In this document: positions 53,393 to 62,212 of the stretch, in pieces
Position numbering within the stretch: position 1 is the stretch's first letter
Layout of the letters: the number at the start of each line of letters is the position of its first letter
Assembly: GCF_000374645.1 (NCBI RefSeq)
Contig: NZ_KB894804.1
Location: forward strand, 62,001 to 126,000
DNA from: Arhodomonas aquaeolei DSM 8974
Lineage (GTDB): Bacteria > Pseudomonadota > Gammaproteobacteria > Nitrococcales > Nitrococcaceae
Reading direction: 5' to 3'
DNA length: 64,000 bases
The notes under the pieces: model-generated
What the model saw: the letters and a program-made list of their open reading frames with translations, nothing else
The model's database searches: none
Told to the model about the DNA's origin: nothing
Translations under genes and position numbers: made by a program

Positions 53393-53860
53393 ATGCCGGA
53401 ATACAGCGAATCACGCGCGGCGATCCTCGATGCGATCTGCCGACGCCATGCCGACGCACCCGGTGCGTTGCTGCCTATCCTCCACGAGGTGCAGGAGCGC
53501 CTCGGCCATATCCCGGGGGATGCCGTTGCCGGCGTCGCCGAACGGCTCAACCTCACCCGCGCCGAGGTCGACGGGGTGGTGGGGTTCTATACCGACTTCC
53601 GCCGCGAACCGGCCCCCGCGCGGGTGGTGAAGGTCTGCCGCGCCGAGGCCTGCCAGGCCGTGGGTGGTCGCGAGGTCTACCGCGCCGCGGTCGCCGCCGC
53701 CGAGGCCGCCGGCGGTACGGTGGAGGTGGAGGCGGTCTACTGCCTGGGCAACTGCGCCTGCAGTCCCGCCGCCCAGGTGGACGGCGAGACCCTGGGGCGG
53801 CTCGACACCGAGCGGGTGACCCGGCTGGTCGCAGGCACGGACGGGGAGGTGCCGGCATGA
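53393..53860 (+). CDS. fdsG: NAD-dependent formate dehydrogenase gamma subunit
   Basis: [2Fe-2S] thioredoxin-fold subunit of the soluble, molybdenum-containing NAD+-dependent formate dehydrogenase; homologous to NuoE. The 155-residue protein has ligands Cys82 and Cys87 (VCRAEACQAVGG) and Cys117 and Cys121 (YCLGNCACSP). The ATG at 53393 follows GGAGGAG; the open frame upstream is not family-like. First gene of fdsGBACD, overlapping fdsB by four bases (ATGA). Confidence 0.95.
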   Translation: MPEYSESRAAILDAICRRHADAPGALLPILHEVQERLGHIPGDAVAGVAERLNLTRAEVDGVVGFYTDFRREPAPARVVKVCRAEACQAVGGREVYRAAVAAAEAAGGTVEVEAVYCLGNCACSPAAQVDGETLGRLDTERVTRLVAGTDGEVPA

Positions 53861-55401
53861 AGGTCTTCCTCTCCCGGGACAGCAGCGCGCAGTCCATCGG
53901 TGCCGAGGCCGTCGCCCGTGCCCTGGCCCGGGTGGCGGCGGAGCGCGGTGAGCCGCTGGAGCTGGTGCGCACGGGCTCGCGCGGGCTGTTCTGGCTCGAG
54001 CCCATGATCGAGATCGAGCGCGACGGCCGGCGCGAGGGCTTCGGCCCGGTCACCCCCGCGGACGTCCCCGGGCTCGTCGCCGCGCTGGCCGATGGCGGTA
54101 CCCACCCCCTCCATCTGGGCCGCATCGAGGAGCTGCTTGCCGCCCAGGGGCAGCGCCGGATCAACTTCCGGCGCTGCGGCGTCGTCGACCCGGCGTCCTG
54201 GGAGGATTACGTGGTCACCGGCGGTACCCGGGGCCTGCGGGCCGCGCTGGAGATGGCGCCGGCGGACGTGGTGGAGGCGGTAACCGCCTCCGGGCTGCGC
54301 GGCCGCGGCGGTGCCGGCTTCCCCACCGGCGTGAAGTGGCGCACCACCCACGAGGCGACCGCCCCGCGCAAGGTCGTGGTCTGCAACGCCGACGAGGGCG
54401 ACAGCGGCACCTTCGCCGACCGCATGCTCATGGAGGGCGATCCCCTCGCCCTCATCGAGGGCATGGCCATCGCCGCCGTCGCGGTGGGGGCGGAGGAGGG
54501 CTACATCTACCTGCGCTCCGAATACCCCCACGCCCGCGAGGCCCTGGAGCGGGCGATCGGGATCGCCTACGACAACGGCCTGCTCGGCGCGGACCTGCTC
54601 GGCTCCGGACGCCGCTTCGATATCGCCCTGCGCATGGGTGCCGGGGCCTACATCTGCGGCGAGGAGACCTCGCTGCTGGAGAGCCTCGAGGGCCGGCGCG
54701 GGGTGATCCGCTTCAAGCCGCCACTGCCGGCGGTGCAGGGCGCCTTCGGTGTACCCACGGTGGTGAACAACGTCATCACCCTGGCCACCGTGCCGGCGAT
54801 CCTCGCCGACGGCGCCGAGGCCTACGCCGCCCTCGGCCACGGCAAGTCCCGCGGCACCCTCACCGTACAGCTGTGCGGCAACGTCCGCCGCCCCGGGCTC
54901 TACGAGGTGCCCTTCGGGGTGTCGCTGGCCCACGTCATCGACGAGCTCGGCGGCGGCACTGCCTCCGGGCGGCCGGTGCGCGCGGTGCAGGCCGGCGGCC
55001 CGCTGGGGGCCTACCTGCCGGCCCCGGCGCTGGACGTGCCGCTGGATTACGAGGCGCTGGCCGAGCGCGGCGGGATGATCGGTCACGGCGGCGTCGTGGT
55101 CTTCGACGACACCGTGGACATGGCCGAGCAGGCGCGCTTCGCCATGGAGTTCTGCGCCATCGAGTCCTGCGGCAAGTGCACTCCGTGCCGGATCGGCTCC
55201 ACCCGCGGGGTGGAGGTCATCGACCGCATCCGTGCCGGCACCGACGCCGACGCCAACCTGGCCCTGCTCGGCGATCTCTGCGACGTCATGGAGCAGGGCT
55301 CGCTCTGCGCCCTGGGCGGGCTGACCCCGTATCCCGTGCGCAGCGCGCTCGAACACTTTCCCGAGGACTTCGGGACCCCGGCCGCCGCTGCGGCGGGCTG
55401 A
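53857..55401 (+). CDS. fdsB: NAD-dependent formate dehydrogenase beta subunit
   Basis: NAD+/FMN-binding subunit, homologous to NuoF with an N-terminal NuoE-like extension. The 514-residue protein has an N-terminal thioredoxin-like domain (about 1-120; MKVFLSRDSSAQSIGAEAV), [16 protein letters not shown] for NADH/FMN, AYICGEETSLLESLEG, and [4Fe-4S] ligands in ESCGKCTPCRIGSTRG with a fourth Cys in GSLCALGG. It overlaps fdsG and ends 18 bases before fdsA. Confidence 0.96.
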   Translation: MKVFLSRDSSAQSIGAEAVARALARVAAERGEPLELVRTGSRGLFWLEPMIEIERDGRREGFGPVTPADVPGLVAALADGGTHPLHLGRIEELLAAQGQRRINFRRCGVVDPASWEDYVVTGGTRGLRAALEMAPADVVEAVTASGLRGRGGAGFPTGVKWRTTHEATAPRKVVVCNADEGDSGTFADRMLMEGDPLALIEGMAIAAVAVGAEEGYIYLRSEYPHAREALERAIGIAYDNGLLGADLLGSGRRFDIALRMGAGAYICGEETSLLESLEGRRGVIRFKPPLPAVQGAFGVPTVVNNVITLATVPAILADGAEAYAALGHGKSRGTLTVQLCGNVRRPGLYEVPFGVSLAHVIDELGGGTASGRPVRAVQAGGPLGAYLPAPALDVPLDYEALAERGGMIGHGGVVVFDDTVDMAEQARFAMEFCAIESCGKCTPCRIGSTRGVEVIDRIRAGTDADANLALLGDLCDVMEQGSLCALGGLTPYPVRSALEHFPEDFGTPAAAAAG

Positions 55402-55419: not shown

Positions 55420-58311
55420 ATGGCTGTCGTACAGGAAACGGACTACGGAACCCCGGTGAGCACCGACGCCCGCACGGTCACCCTGGAGGTGGACGGCCAC
55501 AGCGTGACCGTGCCCGCCGGCACCTCGGTGATGCGTGCGGCGATGACGGCGGACATCGCGATCCCCCGGCTGTGCGCCACCGACAGCCTGGAGCCGTTCG
55601 GCTCCTGCCGGCTGTGTACCGTGGAGATCGAGGGGCGCAAGGGCTACCCCGCCTCCTGCCACACCAACGTCGAGCCGGGGATGGTGGTGCGCACCCAGAC
55701 GCCGGCGCTGGAGAAGCTGCGCCGCGGGGTCATGGAGCTGTACATCTCCGATCACCCCCTGGACTGCCTGACCTGCTCGGCCAACGGCAACTGCGAGCTC
55801 CAGGACATGGCCGGCGCGGTGGGCCTGCGCGAGGTGCGCTACGGCTACGACGGGGCGAACCACCTGGACGCCCCGGTGGACGACTCCAACCCGTATTTCA
55901 GCTTCGACCCGAGCAAGTGCATCGTGTGCTCGCGCTGCGTGCGCGCCTGCGAGGAGGTGCAGGGCACCTTCGCGCTGACCATCGACGGGCGCGGCTTCGA
56001 CTCCGTGATCAGCGCCGGCACCGCCGAGGATGACTTCCTCGACTCCGAGTGCGTCTCCTGCGGCGCCTGCGTGCAGGCCTGCCCCACCGCGACCCTGCAG
56101 GAGAAGACCATCGTCGAGCATGGTCAGCCCGAGCGCAGCGTGATCACCACCTGCGGCTATTGCGGCGTGGGCTGTTCGTTCAAGGCGGAGCTGCGCGGTG
56201 ACCAGGTCATCCGCATGGTGCCCTACAAGGACGGCCAGGCGAACCACGGCCACTCCTGCGTGAAGGGGCGTTTCGCCTGGGGCTACGCCACCCACCCGGA
56301 CCGGATCACCACACCGATGATCCGCGAGCGCATCACCGACGCCTGGCGCGAGGTGAGCTGGGAGGAGGCCATCGATTTCGCCGCCGGGCGTATCCGCGGC
56401 ATCCAGGCGGAGCACGGGCGCGGGGCGGCCGGGGCGATCACCTCCTCGCGCTGCACCAACGAGGAGACGTACCTGGTGCAGAAGCTCGCCCGGGCGGTGT
56501 TCGGCACCAACAACGTCGACACCTGCGCGCGGGTGTGCCATTCACCCACGGGCTACGGTCTGAAGACCGCCTTCGGCACCTCCGCCGGCACCCAGGACTT
56601 CGATTCGGTGGAGGACTCCGACGTCATCCTGGTCATCGGCGCCAATCCCACGGACGCCCATCCGGTGTTCGCCTCGCAGATGAAGCGCCGGCTGCGCGAG
56701 GGCGCGCGGCTCATCGTGGTGGACCCGCGCCGCATCGACCTGGTGCGTACGCCCCACGTCGAGGCCGACTACCACCTCCAGCTCCGCCCGGGCACCAATG
56801 TCGCGCTGGTTAACGCCCTGGCCCACGTGATCGTCACCGAGGGTCTGGCGGACGAGGCCTTCGTCGCCGAGCGCTGCGAGTCCGAGGCGTACGCCGACTG
56901 GCGGGAGTTCATCGTGCGCCCGGAGAACGCCCCGGAGGCGGTGGAAGGGGTTACCGGCGTGCCCGCGGAGGCACTGCGCGGTGCCGCCCGGCTCTACGCC
57001 ACCGGGGGCAACGCCGCGATCTACTACGGCCTCGGGGTGACCGAGCACAGCCAGGGCTCGACCATGGTCATGGGCATGGCCAACCTGGCCATGCTCACCG
57101 GCAACCTGGGGCGGCGCGGTGTCGGTGTGAACCCGCTGCGCGGGCAGAACAACGTCCAGGGCTCCTGCGACATGGGTTCCTTCCCCCACGAGTTCCCGGG
57201 CTACCGGCATGTCGCCAACGACGAGGTGCGCGGGGTCTTCGAGCGCGAGTGGGGCCTGTCCCTGGACAACGAGCCGGGGCTGCGGATCCCCAACATGATC
57301 GACGCCGCCATCGCCGGCAGCTTCAAGGCGCTCTACATCCAGGGCGAGGACATCCTCCAGTCCGATCCGAACATCAAGCACATCGCCGCCGGGCTGGAGA
57401 ACATGGACTGCGTCATCGTCCAGGATCTCTTCCTCAACGAGACGGCGAGCTATGCCCACGTCTTCCTGCCCGGCTCGACCTTCCTGGAGAAGGACGGCAC
57501 CTTCACCAACGCCGAGCGCCGGATCAACCGCGTGCGCCGCGCGGTGGCGCCGCCGGGGGGCATGGCGGACTGGGAGATCACCCTGGCCCTGGCCAGGGCG
57601 CTGGGCTCGCAGATGGACTACGGTCATCCCTCGGAGATCATGGACGAGATCGCCCGCACCACACCCACCTTCGCCGGTGTGACCTACGATAAGCTCGAAC
57701 ACTTGGGCAGCATCCAGTGGCCGTGCAACGAGGCCCATCCGGAAGGCACGCCAACCATGCACGTGGACACCTTCGTGCGCGGCCTGGGGCAGTTCATGCT
57801 CACGCCCTACATCCCCACCGAGGAGCGCAGCAACCGCAGGTTCCCGCTGCTGCTCACCACCGGGCGGATCCTCTCGCAGTACAACGTCGGCGCCCAGACC
57901 CGGCGCACGGACAACCGGGTCTGGCACGCCGAGGATCGTCTGGAGATCCACCCCCACGACGCCGAGCAGCGCGGCATCGGCGACGGTGCCCGAGTCGCGG
58001 TGCGCAGCCGCATCGGCGAGACCACGCTGCGGGCGCTGATCACCGATCGCGTGCCGCCGGGGGTGGTCTACACCACGTTCCATTTCCCGGAGACCGCGGC
58101 CAACGTGGTGACCACGGAGCAGTCCGACTGGGCGACCAACTGCCCCGAGTACAAGGTCACGGCGGTGGAGGTCACGCCCAGTGTCACCGATTCCGAGTGG
58201 CAGGTGCACTACCGCGAGCACCGCGAGCGGACCCTCGGCCTGCCCGCCGAGTCCGCGGAGATGGAGACGGCGGACGGTGCCGTGATCGCCGCGGCGGGGG
58301 CGGGCCGATGA
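55420..58311 (+). CDS. fdsA: NAD-dependent formate dehydrogenase alpha (catalytic) subunit
   Basis: Molybdenum bis-MGD subunit that oxidises formate to CO2. The 963-residue protein has an N-terminal [2Fe-2S] domain (LCATDSLEPFGSCRLC), the HPLDCLTCSANGNCELQD His/Cys site, two ferredoxin-like motifs (CIVCSRCVRAC, CVSCGACVQAC), the CGYCGVGC cluster and the molybdopterin domain. The Mo ligand is a cysteine (Cys373 in CARVCHSPTGYGL), not selenocysteine. Unlike NuoG, it keeps the CxxCxxxC cluster. It overlaps fdsC by four bases. It is cytoplasmic, with no Tat signal. Confidence 0.96.
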   Translation: MAVVQETDYGTPVSTDARTVTLEVDGHSVTVPAGTSVMRAAMTADIAIPRLCATDSLEPFGSCRLCTVEIEGRKGYPASCHTNVEPGMVVRTQTPALEKLRRGVMELYISDHPLDCLTCSANGNCELQDMAGAVGLREVRYGYDGANHLDAPVDDSNPYFSFDPSKCIVCSRCVRACEEVQGTFALTIDGRGFDSVISAGTAEDDFLDSECVSCGACVQACPTATLQEKTIVEHGQPERSVITTCGYCGVGCSFKAELRGDQVIRMVPYKDGQANHGHSCVKGRFAWGYATHPDRITTPMIRERITDAWREVSWEEAIDFAAGRIRGIQAEHGRGAAGAITSSRCTNEETYLVQKLARAVFGTNNVDTCARVCHSPTGYGLKTAFGTSAGTQDFDSVEDSDVILVIGANPTDAHPVFASQMKRRLREGARLIVVDPRRIDLVRTPHVEADYHLQLRPGTNVALVNALAHVIVTEGLADEAFVAERCESEAYADWREFIVRPENAPEAVEGVTGVPAEALRGAARLYATGGNAAIYYGLGVTEHSQGSTMVMGMANLAMLTGNLGRRGVGVNPLRGQNNVQGSCDMGSFPHEFPGYRHVANDEVRGVFEREWGLSLDNEPGLRIPNMIDAAIAGSFKALYIQGEDILQSDPNIKHIAAGLENMDCVIVQDLFLNETASYAHVFLPGSTFLEKDGTFTNAERRINRVRRAVAPPGGMADWEITLALARALGSQMDYGHPSEIMDEIARTTPTFAGVTYDKLEHLGSIQWPCNEAHPEGTPTMHVDTFVRGLGQFMLTPYIPTEERSNRRFPLLLTTGRILSQYNVGAQTRRTDNRVWHAEDRLEIHPHDAEQRGIGDGARVAVRSRIGETTLRALITDRVPPGVVYTTFHFPETAANVVTTEQSDWATNCPEYKVTAVEVTPSVTDSEWQVHYREHRERTLGLPAESAEMETADGAVIAAAGAGR

Positions 58312-59213
58312 GCCCCGCTCCCGCCACCGGGCGGCCCGGCCGTGTGCCCGTGGACGTGCCCGTGATCGCGGACGGCGCCGCCGTGTCCGGGCCGCCCCGG
58401 GCAGCGCCGTATCGCGAGGTTCCCGTGGCCCGCTGGTCCGGCGGAGCCCCGGCCAAAGGCCGCCGGCGCGTGCCCGAGGAGGTGCCGGTGGCGATGCGCG
58501 TGGACTGCGCGGACTACGCGGTCATGCTCGCCAGCCCCACGGACCTGGCGGACTTCGGCGTCGGCTTCTTCTACACCGAGGGCGTCATCGACGGTCCCGG
58601 GGACATCGCCGTGCTGTCGCACAGCGAGCACGACGCGGGCATCGTCCTGCGCGTCGAGCGCCGCTCCGGTGCCGCGCCGATCGCCGACGTCCGCGAGGGC
58701 GGACGCCGGCTGGCCGGCGCCACGGGCTGCGGGCTCTGCGGGGTGGAGGCCCTGAGCGACGCCGTGCGCCCGGTGCGGCGCGTGCCCGCCTCGGCGGCGG
58801 TGGACGCCAGGGCGGTGCACCGCGCGGTGGCCGGGCTGCGCGAGTGGCAGCCCCTGAATGCGAGCACCGGCGCGCTGCATGCCGCGGCCTTCGCCGCTGC
58901 CGACGGCACGGTCGTGACCGCGCGGGAGGACGTCGGCCGCCACAACGCGCTGGACAAGCTCGTTGGCGCGTTACTGCGCGACGGCACCGATCCCGGCGAC
59001 GGCTTCGTGGTGATGACCAGCCGCTGCAGCTACGAGCTGGTCCAGAAGGCCGCCCGGCTGGGGACGGCCACGCTGTGCACGGTCTCCGCGCCGACGGGGC
59101 TGGCCATCCGCCTCGCCGGCGAGGCCGGTATGACCCTCATCGCCCAGGCGAGGGGTGACGGCTTCAGCGTGCTCACCGGCCGCGTCGCGGATGCCGCCGC
59201 GGGTGGGCGGTGA
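58308..59213 (+). CDS. fdsC: FdhD/FdsC formate dehydrogenase sulfurtransferase
   Basis: Chaperone that delivers sulfur to the bis-MGD cofactor and so activates FdsA. The 301-residue protein has the family Cys pair Cys141/Cys144 in GCGLCGVEAL, the EDVGRHNALDKLVG segment and SRCSYELVQKAA near the C-terminal third. It starts inside the last codon of fdsA (ATGA). The first 55 residues are a variable Pro/Ala-rich leader. The in-frame open region upstream belongs to fdsA in another frame. Confidence 0.94.
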   Translation: MSPAPATGRPGRVPVDVPVIADGAAVSGPPRAAPYREVPVARWSGGAPAKGRRRVPEEVPVAMRVDCADYAVMLASPTDLADFGVGFFYTEGVIDGPGDIAVLSHSEHDAGIVLRVERRSGAAPIADVREGGRRLAGATGCGLCGVEALSDAVRPVRRVPASAAVDARAVHRAVAGLREWQPLNASTGALHAAAFAAADGTVVTAREDVGRHNALDKLVGALLRDGTDPGDGFVVMTSRCSYELVQKAARLGTATLCTVSAPTGLAIRLAGEAGMTLIAQARGDGFSVLTGRVADAAAGGR

Positions 59214-59251: not shown

Positions 59252-59455
59252 ATGCATACCGACAAGCTCGTGCACATGGCCAACGAGATCGCCACCTACT
59301 TCGAGGCCTACCCGGAGGACCGGGCCCGGCGCGAGACGCTGGGCCACATCCGGGCGTTCTGGGAGCCGCGCATGCGTTCGGCGCTGGGCGAGCACGCCCG
59401 CGCGGGCGGGGACGGGCTCCGAGCGCTGGCGCACTGGGCGGCGGAACAGTTGTAG
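59252..59455 (+). CDS. fdsD: Formate dehydrogenase delta subunit
   Basis: Small accessory subunit of the FdsGBA complex, 67 residues. The family pattern is visible: LVHMANEIATYFEAYPED near the N-terminus, then HIRAFWEPRMRSAL and a helical C-terminus. ATG 59252 gives this N-terminus; a longer frame from 59210 is less likely. It completes the fdsGBACD operon; the order matches Rhodobacter and Cupriavidus. Confidence 0.92.
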   Translation: MHTDKLVHMANEIATYFEAYPEDRARRETLGHIRAFWEPRMRSALGEHARAGGDGLRALAHWAAEQL

Positions 59456-59586: not shown

Positions 59587-61014
59587 ATGAGCACCACCGA
59601 CGCAGGGTTCCTGTCGAAGGAACGCATCACCGCGCCACGCAATTTCAACCGATGGCTGATACCACCTGCCGCCCTGGCGGTGCACCTGTCCATCGGCCAG
59701 GTCTATGCACTGAGCGTGTTCAACCTGCCGTTGACCCGGGTTCTCGGCGTCACCGAGCAGACACCGGCGGACTGGCGCCTCACCAGCCTCGGATGGATAT
59801 TCAGCATCGCCATTCTGGTGCTCGGCCTGGCGGCGGCCTTCGGCGGCCATTGGGTTGAGCGGGTCGGCCCGCGCAAGGCCATGGCGGTGAGCGCCGTGAC
59901 CTTCGGCGGCGGCTTCCTGGTCTCGGCGCTTGGCGTGCAGACCCACCAGCTGTGGTTGCTGTACCTCGGTTACGGCGTACTCGGCGGCATCGGTCTCGGT
60001 TTCGGTTATGTCTCGCCGGTCTCGACATTGCTCAAGTGGTTCCCGGATCGGCGTGGCCTGGCCACTGGCATGGCGATCATGGGCTTCGGCGGCGGCGCGA
60101 TGCTCGCCTCACCCATGTCCGTGGCACTGATGGACTACTTCTCCACGCCGGAGTCGGTCGGCGTGGCGGGGGCGTTCGTGGTCCTCGGCATTGTCTACTT
60201 CATCGCCATCGGATTCGGCGCGCTGATCGTGCGGGTACCGCCGGAGGGCTGGAAGCCCGAGGGCTGGGACGGTCAGGTCGCTGGCGGCTCCGGCAAGGCG
60301 AGCCTGGTTACCGACGGCCACGTACACATCAACCAGGCGATGAGGACCCCGCAGTTCTACCTGATGTGGGCGGCGCTGTTCCTCAACGTCACCGCCGGCA
60401 TCGGCGTGCTCGGACAGGCCTCGGCGATGAGCCAGGAGATGTTCCCCGGCGTGATCACCGCGGGTGCGGCGGCGGGCTTCGTGGGCATGCTCAGCCTGTT
60501 CAACATGGCGGGCCGGTTCTTCTGGGCGTCGCTGTCCGACCGCATCGGCCGCAAGACCACCTTCAGTACGTTCTTCATCCTCGGCATGGTGCTGTTCGCG
60601 CTGGTGCCGCAGACGGGGAATCTCGGTGCGGTGACGCTGTTCGTGATCGGCTACATGGTGATCATCAGCATGTACGGCGGCGGCTTCTCCACGATCCCCG
60701 CCTACCTCGCCGATGTGTTCGGCACCCGGTTCGTGGGCGGCATCCATGGCCGGATCCTCACCGCTTGGTCGGCGGCGGGTGTGGTCGGCCCGACGCTGGT
60801 TAACTATATCCGCCAGTACCAGATCGACCAGGGCGTGGCCAAGGCAGACGCCTACACCATCACCATGTACATCATGGCGGCGCTGCTGTTCGCCGGCCTG
60901 CTGTGCAATCTTAAGATCCGCCAAATAGCCGACCACCACCTCATAGACGAGGAGGCCGAACCCGTTCGTCCGGTCCGTGGTGGCCCGACGGTTGCGGCGG
61001 ATGCCCAGAACTGA
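59587..61014 (+). CDS. MFS transporter, oxalate/formate antiporter (OFA) family
   Basis: Polytopic transporter, 475 residues, 12 helices. OFA-type features: HLSIGQVYALSVFNLPLTRVLG at helix 1, the LGGIGLGFGYVSPVSTLLKWFPDRRGLATGMAIMGFG region of helices 4-5, and GFSTIPAYLADVFGTRFVGGIHGR in the second half. OxlT of Oxalobacter exchanges oxalate for formate; here the neighbouring formate dehydrogenase makes formate or another small carboxylate plausible. No oxalate-degrading enzyme is visible. AGGAGAGAG precedes the ATG. A tiny membrane protein gene follows. Confidence 0.9.
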   Translation: MSTTDAGFLSKERITAPRNFNRWLIPPAALAVHLSIGQVYALSVFNLPLTRVLGVTEQTPADWRLTSLGWIFSIAILVLGLAAAFGGHWVERVGPRKAMAVSAVTFGGGFLVSALGVQTHQLWLLYLGYGVLGGIGLGFGYVSPVSTLLKWFPDRRGLATGMAIMGFGGGAMLASPMSVALMDYFSTPESVGVAGAFVVLGIVYFIAIGFGALIVRVPPEGWKPEGWDGQVAGGSGKASLVTDGHVHINQAMRTPQFYLMWAALFLNVTAGIGVLGQASAMSQEMFPGVITAGAAAGFVGMLSLFNMAGRFFWASLSDRIGRKTTFSTFFILGMVLFALVPQTGNLGAVTLFVIGYMVIISMYGGGFSTIPAYLADVFGTRFVGGIHGRILTAWSAAGVVGPTLVNYIRQYQIDQGVAKADAYTITMYIMAALLFAGLLCNLKIRQIADHHLIDEEAEPVRPVRGGPTVAADAQN

Positions 61015-61039
61015 ATAAATCCCCGGAGGAGGACTACCC

Positions 61040-61156
61040 ATGGCCAACGGCAATGGTGAACACCGTGTACAGCTGACCGTCACCTGGTTGGTCGTGCTGA
61101 TTCCGCTCGTCATCGGGGTTGTCTCGACCCTGTCCAAGGCGGTCAAGCTGTTCTGA
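61040..61156 (+). CDS. 38-residue single-helix membrane protein, likely transporter partner
   Basis: A very short gene behind a strong GGAGGAGGA ribosome site, 25 bases after the OFA transporter stop. The product begins MANGNGEHRVQLTVTW, has one hydrophobic helix (LVVLIPLVIGVVSTL) and a basic end (SKAVKLF). Similar tiny proteins next to OFA-type transporters are annotated elsewhere as a small MFS-associated subunit (recalled, not checked). It is shorter than usual gene-caller cut-offs and easily missed. Confidence 0.75.
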   Translation: MANGNGEHRVQLTVTWLVVLIPLVIGVVSTLSKAVKLF

Positions 61157-61261: not shown

Positions 61262-62212
61262 ATGGACATCCGACAGCTCGAATACCTCGCCGCACTGGCC
61301 CAGGAGAAGCACTTCACCCGCGCCGCGGCGCGGTGCAACGTCACCCAGCCCACGCTCTCGGGGCGGATCCGCCAGCTCGAGCAGGAGCTCGGTGTGCCCA
61401 TCGTCGAGCGCGGTCAGCGCTACCACGGCCTCACCGCCGAGGGACAGCGGGTGCTCAAGTGGGCCCAGGTGATCCTGGAATACCGCTCGTCGATGATGCA
61501 GGATCTCAGCGAGCTCAAGGGTGGGCTGAGCGGACGCCTGGTGCTGGGGGTCATCCCGTCGGCGCTGCCCATGGCGACCTCGGTGACCCGCGTGGTGCGC
61601 CGCGAGCACCCGAGCGTGTCCTTTACCGTGCACTCGGCGACCTCCAACGAAATCCTGCGCGATGTCCAGGAGTTCCATATCGATGCCGGTATCACCTATC
61701 TGGACAACGAGCCCGTGGAACGCGTGGAAACCCTGCCGCTGTACATGGAGCGCTATTGCCTGTTCCTGCCCAAACACCATGCCTGGGCGGGCAGGGAGCA
61801 GGTGACCTGGGCGGAGGCCGCGCAACTACCGCTGTGCCTGCTCACCCCGGACATGCAAAACCGCCGCATCATCGCCAAGGCGTTCCGCAGCGTGGACTGC
61901 AATCCGGAGGCGGAGATCGAGACCGATTCCGTGGTCCATCTCTGGGCCCAGGTCCGTTTCTCCGGCTGGGCCAGCGTGATGCCGGAATACTTCAGTGAGC
62001 TGTTCGGCAGCGACAGCGGTATCCGCGGCATCCCGCTGCACGAGCCGGATGTCGAGTACGCGGTAGGTCTCGTGGCGCTCGCCAGGGAGCCGCTCTCGCC
62101 GACCATCCATGCCCTGTTCGAGGCCTGCCGGGCCAACGAGCTGCTGCCGCTGGGGGAACCGGTGGAGCCGGTGGAGCCGGCGGGTTCCGGCGGCCTGCCC
62201 GTGGGGGAGTGA
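61262..62212 (+). CDS. LysR family transcriptional regulator
   Basis: 316 residues. The N-terminal winged helix is typical: MDIRQLEYLAALAQEKHFTRAAARCNVTQPTLSGRIRQLEQELG. A periplasmic-binding-like effector domain follows (about 95-300). The last 20 residues are a repetitive tail (EPVEPVEPAGSGG) encoded by a short direct DNA repeat (62159-62181). Same strand as, and immediately downstream of, the formate dehydrogenase/OFA cluster, so a role in controlling it is likely but unproven. The effector is unknown. Confidence 0.93.
   Translation: MDIRQLEYLAALAQEKHFTRAAARCNVTQPTLSGRIRQLEQELGVPIVERGQRYHGLTAEGQRVLKWAQVILEYRSSMMQDLSELKGGLSGRLVLGVIPSALPMATSVTRVVRREHPSVSFTVHSATSNEILRDVQEFHIDAGITYLDNEPVERVETLPLYMERYCLFLPKHHAWAGREQVTWAEAAQLPLCLLTPDMQNRRIIAKAFRSVDCNPEAEIETDSVVHLWAQVRFSGWASVMPEYFSELFGSDSGIRGIPLHEPDVEYAVGLVALAREPLSPTIHALFEACRANELLPLGEPVEPVEPAGSGGLPVGE

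Follow-up and report, generated by a model that had tools for sequence, protein, structure and literature searches.

A 38-residue single-helix protein encoded behind an SfMCT-type carrier downstream of formate dehydrogenase genes in Arhodomonas aquaeolei

The small gene and its surroundings

We analyzed a stretch of 64,000 nucleotides from Arhodomonas aquaeolei DSM 8974 (hereafter the window; contig NZ_KB894804.1, positions 62,001 to 126,000), which carries on its forward strand the genes fdsG-fdsB-fdsA-fdhD-fdsD, followed by a carrier gene, a very small gene, and a gene for a LysR-type regulator. The first two genes, fdsG (about 53393-53860) and fdsB (about 53857-55401), both with approximate starts, were named without a family-library scan, from gene order, reading of the sequence, and matches to relatives. 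The next three were assigned by family models: fdsA (55420-58311) by Fdh-alpha TIGR01591 (930.5 bits), fdhD (58308-59213) by FdhD TIGR00129 (163.3 bits), and fdsD (59252-59455) by FdsD PF11390 (72.7 bits). The carrier (59587-61014) is a 475-residue MFS protein of the 12-TM type and of the SfMCT/OFA kind, as indicated by matches to NF049980 and MFS_1 and by its sequence relatives in the PDB, namely SfMCT (6g9x), OxlT (8hpj), and human MCT1. The LysR-type gene (61262-62212; HTH_1 and LysR_substrate) lies directly 3' of the small gene and possibly encodes the regulator of the operon; homologues of this regulator were present near the carrier at 6 of 80 named loci. Between 59440 and 61300, we found no promoter-like sites (0.2 expected) and two terminator-like patterns (1.0 expected), neither of them directly 3' of the small gene on the same strand.

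The small gene occupies positions 61040-61156 of the forward strand. Its ATG at 61040 stands 25 bases past the carrier stop codon (TGA, 61012-61014), the frame and its stop codon together span 117 bases, and a Shine-Dalgarno-like site, GGAGGAGGA, can be read directly at 61025-61033, 6 bases 5' of the ATG. The 38-residue product, MANGNGEHRVQLTVTWLVVLIPLVIGVVSTLSKAVKLF, has a single hydrophobic stretch, and two lysines are among its last seven residues. The site, the spacing, the start codon, the hydrophobic helix, the basic end, and the length were all given in the original prediction for this DNA, and every one of these sequence details was confirmed.

The product matches the NCBIfam model NF047966 (MFS_OXA_tail_dom, cut-off 24 bits) at E 3e-10 with a score of 39.5 bits, and no other match over that cut-off exists in the genome. 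All 38 members of alignment A3 also match this model at E <= 0.001, while a Pfam scan of the 38-mer gave zero matches and a PHROGs scan gave a single one, which was dismissed (E 0.14). Since NF047966 bears the name "MFS transporter small subunit", the family had been named beforehand, and the prediction was right about the existence of similar small genes beside OFA transporters. It had also placed the frame below normal gene-calling size, yet such genes are within reach of annotation, as relatives equally small are annotated in public records. The 38-residue frame is a real gene.

The gene is under purifying selection. We use "tail" for the conserved NF047966 part, whether it is encoded by a separate gene or as a C-terminal extension of the carrier. 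In 14 pairs of near relatives, the pooled pN/pS of this conserved part was 0.243, as compared to 0.164 for the carrier in the same pairs, and 156 of the 262 tail changes fell at third positions. The comparison with the nearest relative (L002 versus L046) covered the conserved part (31 codons) and gave 15.0 synonymous and 8.0 non-synonymous changes, a pN/pS of 0.22. The synonymous/non-synonymous check proposed with the prediction thus gave ratios well under one (pooled 0.24 in the 14 pairs).

Conservation within the tail is strongly patterned. A tryptophan, a proline, and a glycine are invariant in 94 of 94 tails; valine, threonine, leucine, and phenylalanine positions are nearly so, and the end pattern K/N..A..LF is conserved. 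A second tryptophan is found in 81 of the 94 tails, at a position where the window protein has isoleucine. Outside this set, a tail on a Caballeronia plasmid (L162) carries serine in place of the glycine. The conservation moment at 100 degrees was 15.3, while shuffled sequences averaged 5.4 and reached the observed value in 8 of 10000 shuffles. As judged from these alignments, tail conservation lies on one helix face, the pattern expected of a helix packed sidewise on a partner.

Both the family name in NCBIfam and the annotation of individual members are already known. The records differ in what they call these proteins: RefSeq labels the 42-residue product of L162:3923-4051 (WP_244850524.1) "oxalate:formate antiporter", although it is really a single-helix subunit and not a transporter, and the small protein of another relative is annotated as "hypothetical protein". 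The partner is therefore sometimes hidden in public records under these two labels. A literature search, with subscription journals mostly outside its coverage, found no experimental paper on the small subunit, and the terms oxalate, MFS, and antiporter are absent from PMC11540253. The present analysis adds a count of how often the two chains are split or fused, the boundaries of the clade, a test for selection, the finding that conservation lies on one side of the helix, and an argument against oxalate from the binding-site residues.

Pairing of the tail with the carrier

To describe how widely the carrier and the tail occur together, genomes were searched from both ends. Starting from the tail, a class sample of 321 genomes contained a tail over the cut-off in 15, and all 16 such places lay after or within a carrier frame; the class-sample places below the cut-off that we examined were L024-L026, L029, and L160. 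The phylum sample held the tail in 52 of 398 genomes, at 54 places, of which 41 were fused, 12 were separate genes (the window included), and one was a deleted remnant. This remnant (L214:1971-2315, forward strand) has its tail in a 115-residue frame with only a scrap of carrier in front, as is left by a deleted fused carrier gene.

Starting from the carrier, the SfMCT model at E <= 1e-50 retrieved 41 places from the class sample. A tail was present at 16 and absent at 24, and one at a contig end (L055) was left without a call and stands unlabeled in the tree. The tail-less carriers divide into 11 that form a sister clade, 7 that are more distant, and 6 whose similarity is below the threshold for the tree (L060, L061, L062, L064, L150, and L154, which are counted as tail-less). 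Members of the sister clade (L063, L065-L067, L151-L153, and L155-L158) have longer open frames of 568-646 residues, yet are tail-less, and keep the binding residues described below. In the window genome, the neighboring carrier is the only one over the cut-off of the SfMCT model. A control genome of E. coli contained one carrier over the SfMCT cut-off and zero tails over the NF047966 cut-off. With 16 of 41 places having a tail and 24 lacking one, the pairing is a trait of one clade, near-constant within it.

Among named carrier relatives, the best 80 of 557 confirmed ones comprised 54 with the small gene directly downstream, 23 fused carriers, 1 ambiguous case (L073, in which the carrier and tail frames fail to fit together), and 2 without a tail (L086 and L125, where none was found near the carrier or, over the cut-off, elsewhere in the drafts). 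They belong to Pseudomonadota, Acidobacteriota, Gemmatimonadota, Planctomycetota, Bacteroidota, and Vulcanimicrobiota. Because the query alignment used for retrieval consisted of tail-bearing carriers only, the high tail rate among these 80 describes one clade. A tblastn search of plasmid records with the 38-mer returned zero matches although tail-bearing carriers are present there, since so short and divergent a query is unsuited to the purpose.

We consider a dedicated partnership between the small protein and the carrier very likely on the strength of this distribution. Conservation downstream of related carriers, which the prediction had named as a check, was found (54 separate and 23 fused among the best 80 of 557), and its view of the small protein as a dedicated transporter partner is supported by the pairing in relatives, by selection, and by natural fusions. 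It had also called the subunit obligate; that word holds at most within one clade, as the tail is absent in 2 of the 80 best relatives and in 24 of the 41 class-sample carriers. Its suggestion that the subunit stabilizes or gates the transporter goes beyond these data, which bear on the partnership.

The two forms have been exchanged repeatedly. We built a tree of 115 carriers, each cut to the part matching the window carrier and with the tail excluded; a carrier with a broken frame (L149) was kept out of the tree and of the frame count and was scored as fused in the class tally. On this tree, the three states (separate, fused, none) required 7 changes, as compared to a shuffled mean of 42.6, and the label "fused" required 4; well-supported branches force 3 of these. 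A largely fused group holds carriers of Pseudomonas, Bradyrhizobium, and Rhodocyclaceae with three separate ones among them, and a second fused group, from Planctomycetota, is nested within a separate-gene clade. These changes are exchanges between the forms, with fusion and splitting indistinguishable in direction. Several such exchanges constitute classical indirect evidence of joint function.

In all 65 separate genes (the window included), no more than 250 bases separate the beginning of the conserved tail from the carrier stop, and in 61 the start codon lies between -10 and +100 bases of that stop. A Shine-Dalgarno-like match of at least 4 bases precedes 54 of the 65 (the window again included), a figure that favors such sites because the start codons were picked by this match. 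Read-through of the carrier stop codon was ruled out as a general route to the tail, as 38 of the 65 separate tails are in a frame other than that of the carrier. One further arrangement was observed at L148:691-3087 (reverse strand), where a single 799-residue frame runs from the carrier through the tail helix into a bestrophin-like domain (PF14023) at the C-terminus; this fusion suggests that the 13th helix can lead into a further membrane domain.

Carrier class and candidate substrate

The window carrier scored 342.6 bits with NF049980, the model for L-lactate carriers of the SfMCT type, above its cut-off of 320, while it remained below the cut-offs of both the OFA model TIGR00890 (185.9 bits against 374.85) and the OxlT model TIGR04259 (132.5 bits against 335). 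Its residues R310, N306, and Y141 correspond to Arg280, Asn276, and Tyr119 of SfMCT, which bind the carboxylate according to the available text of PMC6573034. At the position of OxlT Lys355, which holds the second carboxylate of oxalate (PMC10070484, available part), the window carrier has W394. All 150 rows of the tail group have tryptophan at this position, and so do all 11 sister carriers that lack a tail, so that this feature is independent of the tail. With the SfMCT cut-off passed, the two other models failed, and the lysine of OxlT absent, the label "OFA" that the prediction gave to the transporter is a loose one, although RefSeq assigns relatives to the OFA family. Retention of the carboxylate-binding arginine together with tryptophan in place of Lys355 makes a monocarboxylate likelier than oxalate, and a monocarboxylate is the most likely substrate as far as these residues indicate.

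Formate is our best guess for this monocarboxylate, slightly favored over all other candidates taken together, because the carrier comes after formate dehydrogenase genes. A formate dehydrogenase-type homologue was found within up to 6 kb at 19 of 80 named loci (a raw count); at 4 of these 19, the homologue was FdsB alone, which possibly belongs to another NADH-linked enzyme. The remaining 61 loci had zero formate dehydrogenase homologues in the flanking DNA examined. Genes of the formate dehydrogenase type also adjoin the carrier on plasmids of Palleronia and Deinococcus. Substrates may vary across the carrier clade.

Candidate role of the helix and comparison with known systems

Structure prediction gave a single helix for the lone 38-mer, spanning residues 7-37, with pLDDT values of 90, 96, and 95 in the last three blocks. 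A natural fusion from Singulisphaera (L117, 492 residues) was modeled with AlphaFold2 at a mean pLDDT of 91.2 and a pTM of 0.90; its tail helix (462-491) follows a low-confidence linker, with tail blocks at about 90-94. The confidence of the tail helix in this fusion was rejected as evidence of docking because the lone 38-mer is predicted with equal confidence. The model resembles SfMCT most closely (Z 45-46, aligned as far as model residue 434-438), followed by OxlT (Z 40-44) and MCT1/MCT2 (Z 35-37), and as these alignments all stop at model residues 434-443, the tail is an extra helix. Among the matches listed by the structure search, none had an alignment beyond model residue 444; this search covered the carrier core and does not show that the tail is without a counterpart. 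Covariation analysis of tail and carrier, with 147 natural pairs (effective number 73), gave a diffuse signal. Because its top inter-chain pairs were spread across many columns of the carrier, in a manner resembling shared ancestry, we claim no docking site.

The frame encodes the MFS transporter small subunit as a gene of its own, and we propose that the product probably forms a helix packed on the SfMCT-type carrier as its 13th transmembrane helix. The small gene would be translated directly after the carrier, and the 38-mer would enter the membrane as one helix. Carriers of the 12-TM MFS type end in the cytoplasm, and in the fusions the linker follows this C-terminus, so the N-terminus of the helix is presumably inside the cell. 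The helix would pack on the carrier by its W..V..P...G...T face, and the natural fusions point to a direct 1:1 contact within the membrane. It would then aid the folding, stability, or assembly of the carrier, a role that we prefer over substrate binding because tail-less carriers keep the binding residues; we give about even weight to folding and stability being the main role of the small protein. The carrier, in turn, would move formate for the formate dehydrogenase encoded upstream.

Several other explanations were weighed. With just 38 codons in G+C-rich DNA, which is rich in chance frames, the conservation might in principle reflect a chance frame or a non-coding element, a reading of negligible probability: it is refuted by the NF047966 match and by the selection data (pN/pS 0.22-0.24 with changes concentrated at third positions), and the Shine-Dalgarno-like site speaks against it as well. 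The protein might instead be an independent small membrane protein, such as a toxin-like or stress peptide, that is by chance a neighbor in the operon, and its size and single hydrophobic helix are typical of many such peptides. This is very improbable and already strongly disfavored by the distribution, in which the tail is beside or fused to the carrier in 77 of the best 80 among 557 named relatives, the ambiguous one excluded, and the tail-first places coincide with a carrier in 16 of 16 cases in the class sample and 53 of 54 in the phylum sample, the last being the remnant. A different substrate would follow if the carrier exchanged oxalate for formate and the small protein took part in oxalate use, as might be read from the RefSeq labels of one relative, whose carrier is an "OFA family MFS transporter" and whose small protein an "oxalate:formate antiporter". 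We regard this as unlikely, given that the carrier falls short of the TIGR00890 and TIGR04259 cut-offs and that tryptophan replaces the oxalate-binding Lys355 of OxlT (PMC10070484, available part).

The main competitor accepts the partnership and assigns it another purpose: as a gating or regulatory subunit, the small protein would tune the rate, direction, or energy sensing of transport, with its helix contacting either the membrane surface or those segments of the carrier that move. The proline and glycine that are conserved in the helix, together with the conserved K/N..A..LF end, could suit a moving contact, and a bestrophin-like domain follows the tail in the L148 fusion. Tail-less carriers with identical binding residues exist, which argues against such a role, and we give gating perhaps half the weight of folding and stability.

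A wider reading can be offered tentatively, and we hold it to be somewhat less probable than its opposite. A broad bacterial clade of SLC16-like monocarboxylate carriers would have evolved a single-helix partner needed for activity, a counterpart of basigin and embigin by convergence; in formate dehydrogenase operons, the pair would be a formate importer that has been overlooked and that needs the 38-mer to be active, and the fusions would fix the 1:1 complex. In practice, cloning the carrier gene alone for heterologous transport or engineering could omit a needed partner. If the partner is needed, the pair would offer a minimal system for a single-helix accessory role in an MFS carrier, with natural fused and split versions at hand.

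Compared with known systems, the window protein shows essentially no difference from NF047966, whose members occupy the same position behind an SfMCT/OFA-type carrier and whose model recognizes the tails in fused carriers as well; it differs by isoleucine where most tails have the second tryptophan. SfMCT, a bacterial SLC16 homologue (PDB 6g9x and 6hcl), has the carrier fold and the Arg/Asn/Tyr carboxylate site in common with the window carrier, whereas its 420-residue chain, aligned to residue 410, leaves no space for a 30-residue tail, and a small subunit is unmentioned in the available part of its paper (PMC6573034). OxlT of Oxalobacter (PDB 8hpj and 8hpk) is a homologous MFS carrier whose Arg272 and Asn268 are kept in the window carrier, in contrast to its Lys355, and the window carrier does not reach the NCBIfam cut-off for OxlT. 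The closest parallel in working principle is that of basigin and embigin with MCT1-4, the mammalian SLC16 carriers, where a single transmembrane helix encoded by a separate gene likewise partners a carrier that has this fold and moves monocarboxylates. In MCT2, the embigin helix lies against TM6 and TM3 (PMC12894981, available part), and basigin and embigin are described as required for trafficking, while transport as such seems not to depend on them (PMC6573034, available part). Both have extracellular Ig domains, whereas the 38-mer has none and consists of one helix in 38 residues, so that the likeness is one of principle and not of homology. A role in folding, stability, or assembly that resembles the service of basigin and embigin to the MCTs is the most likely one for the small protein.
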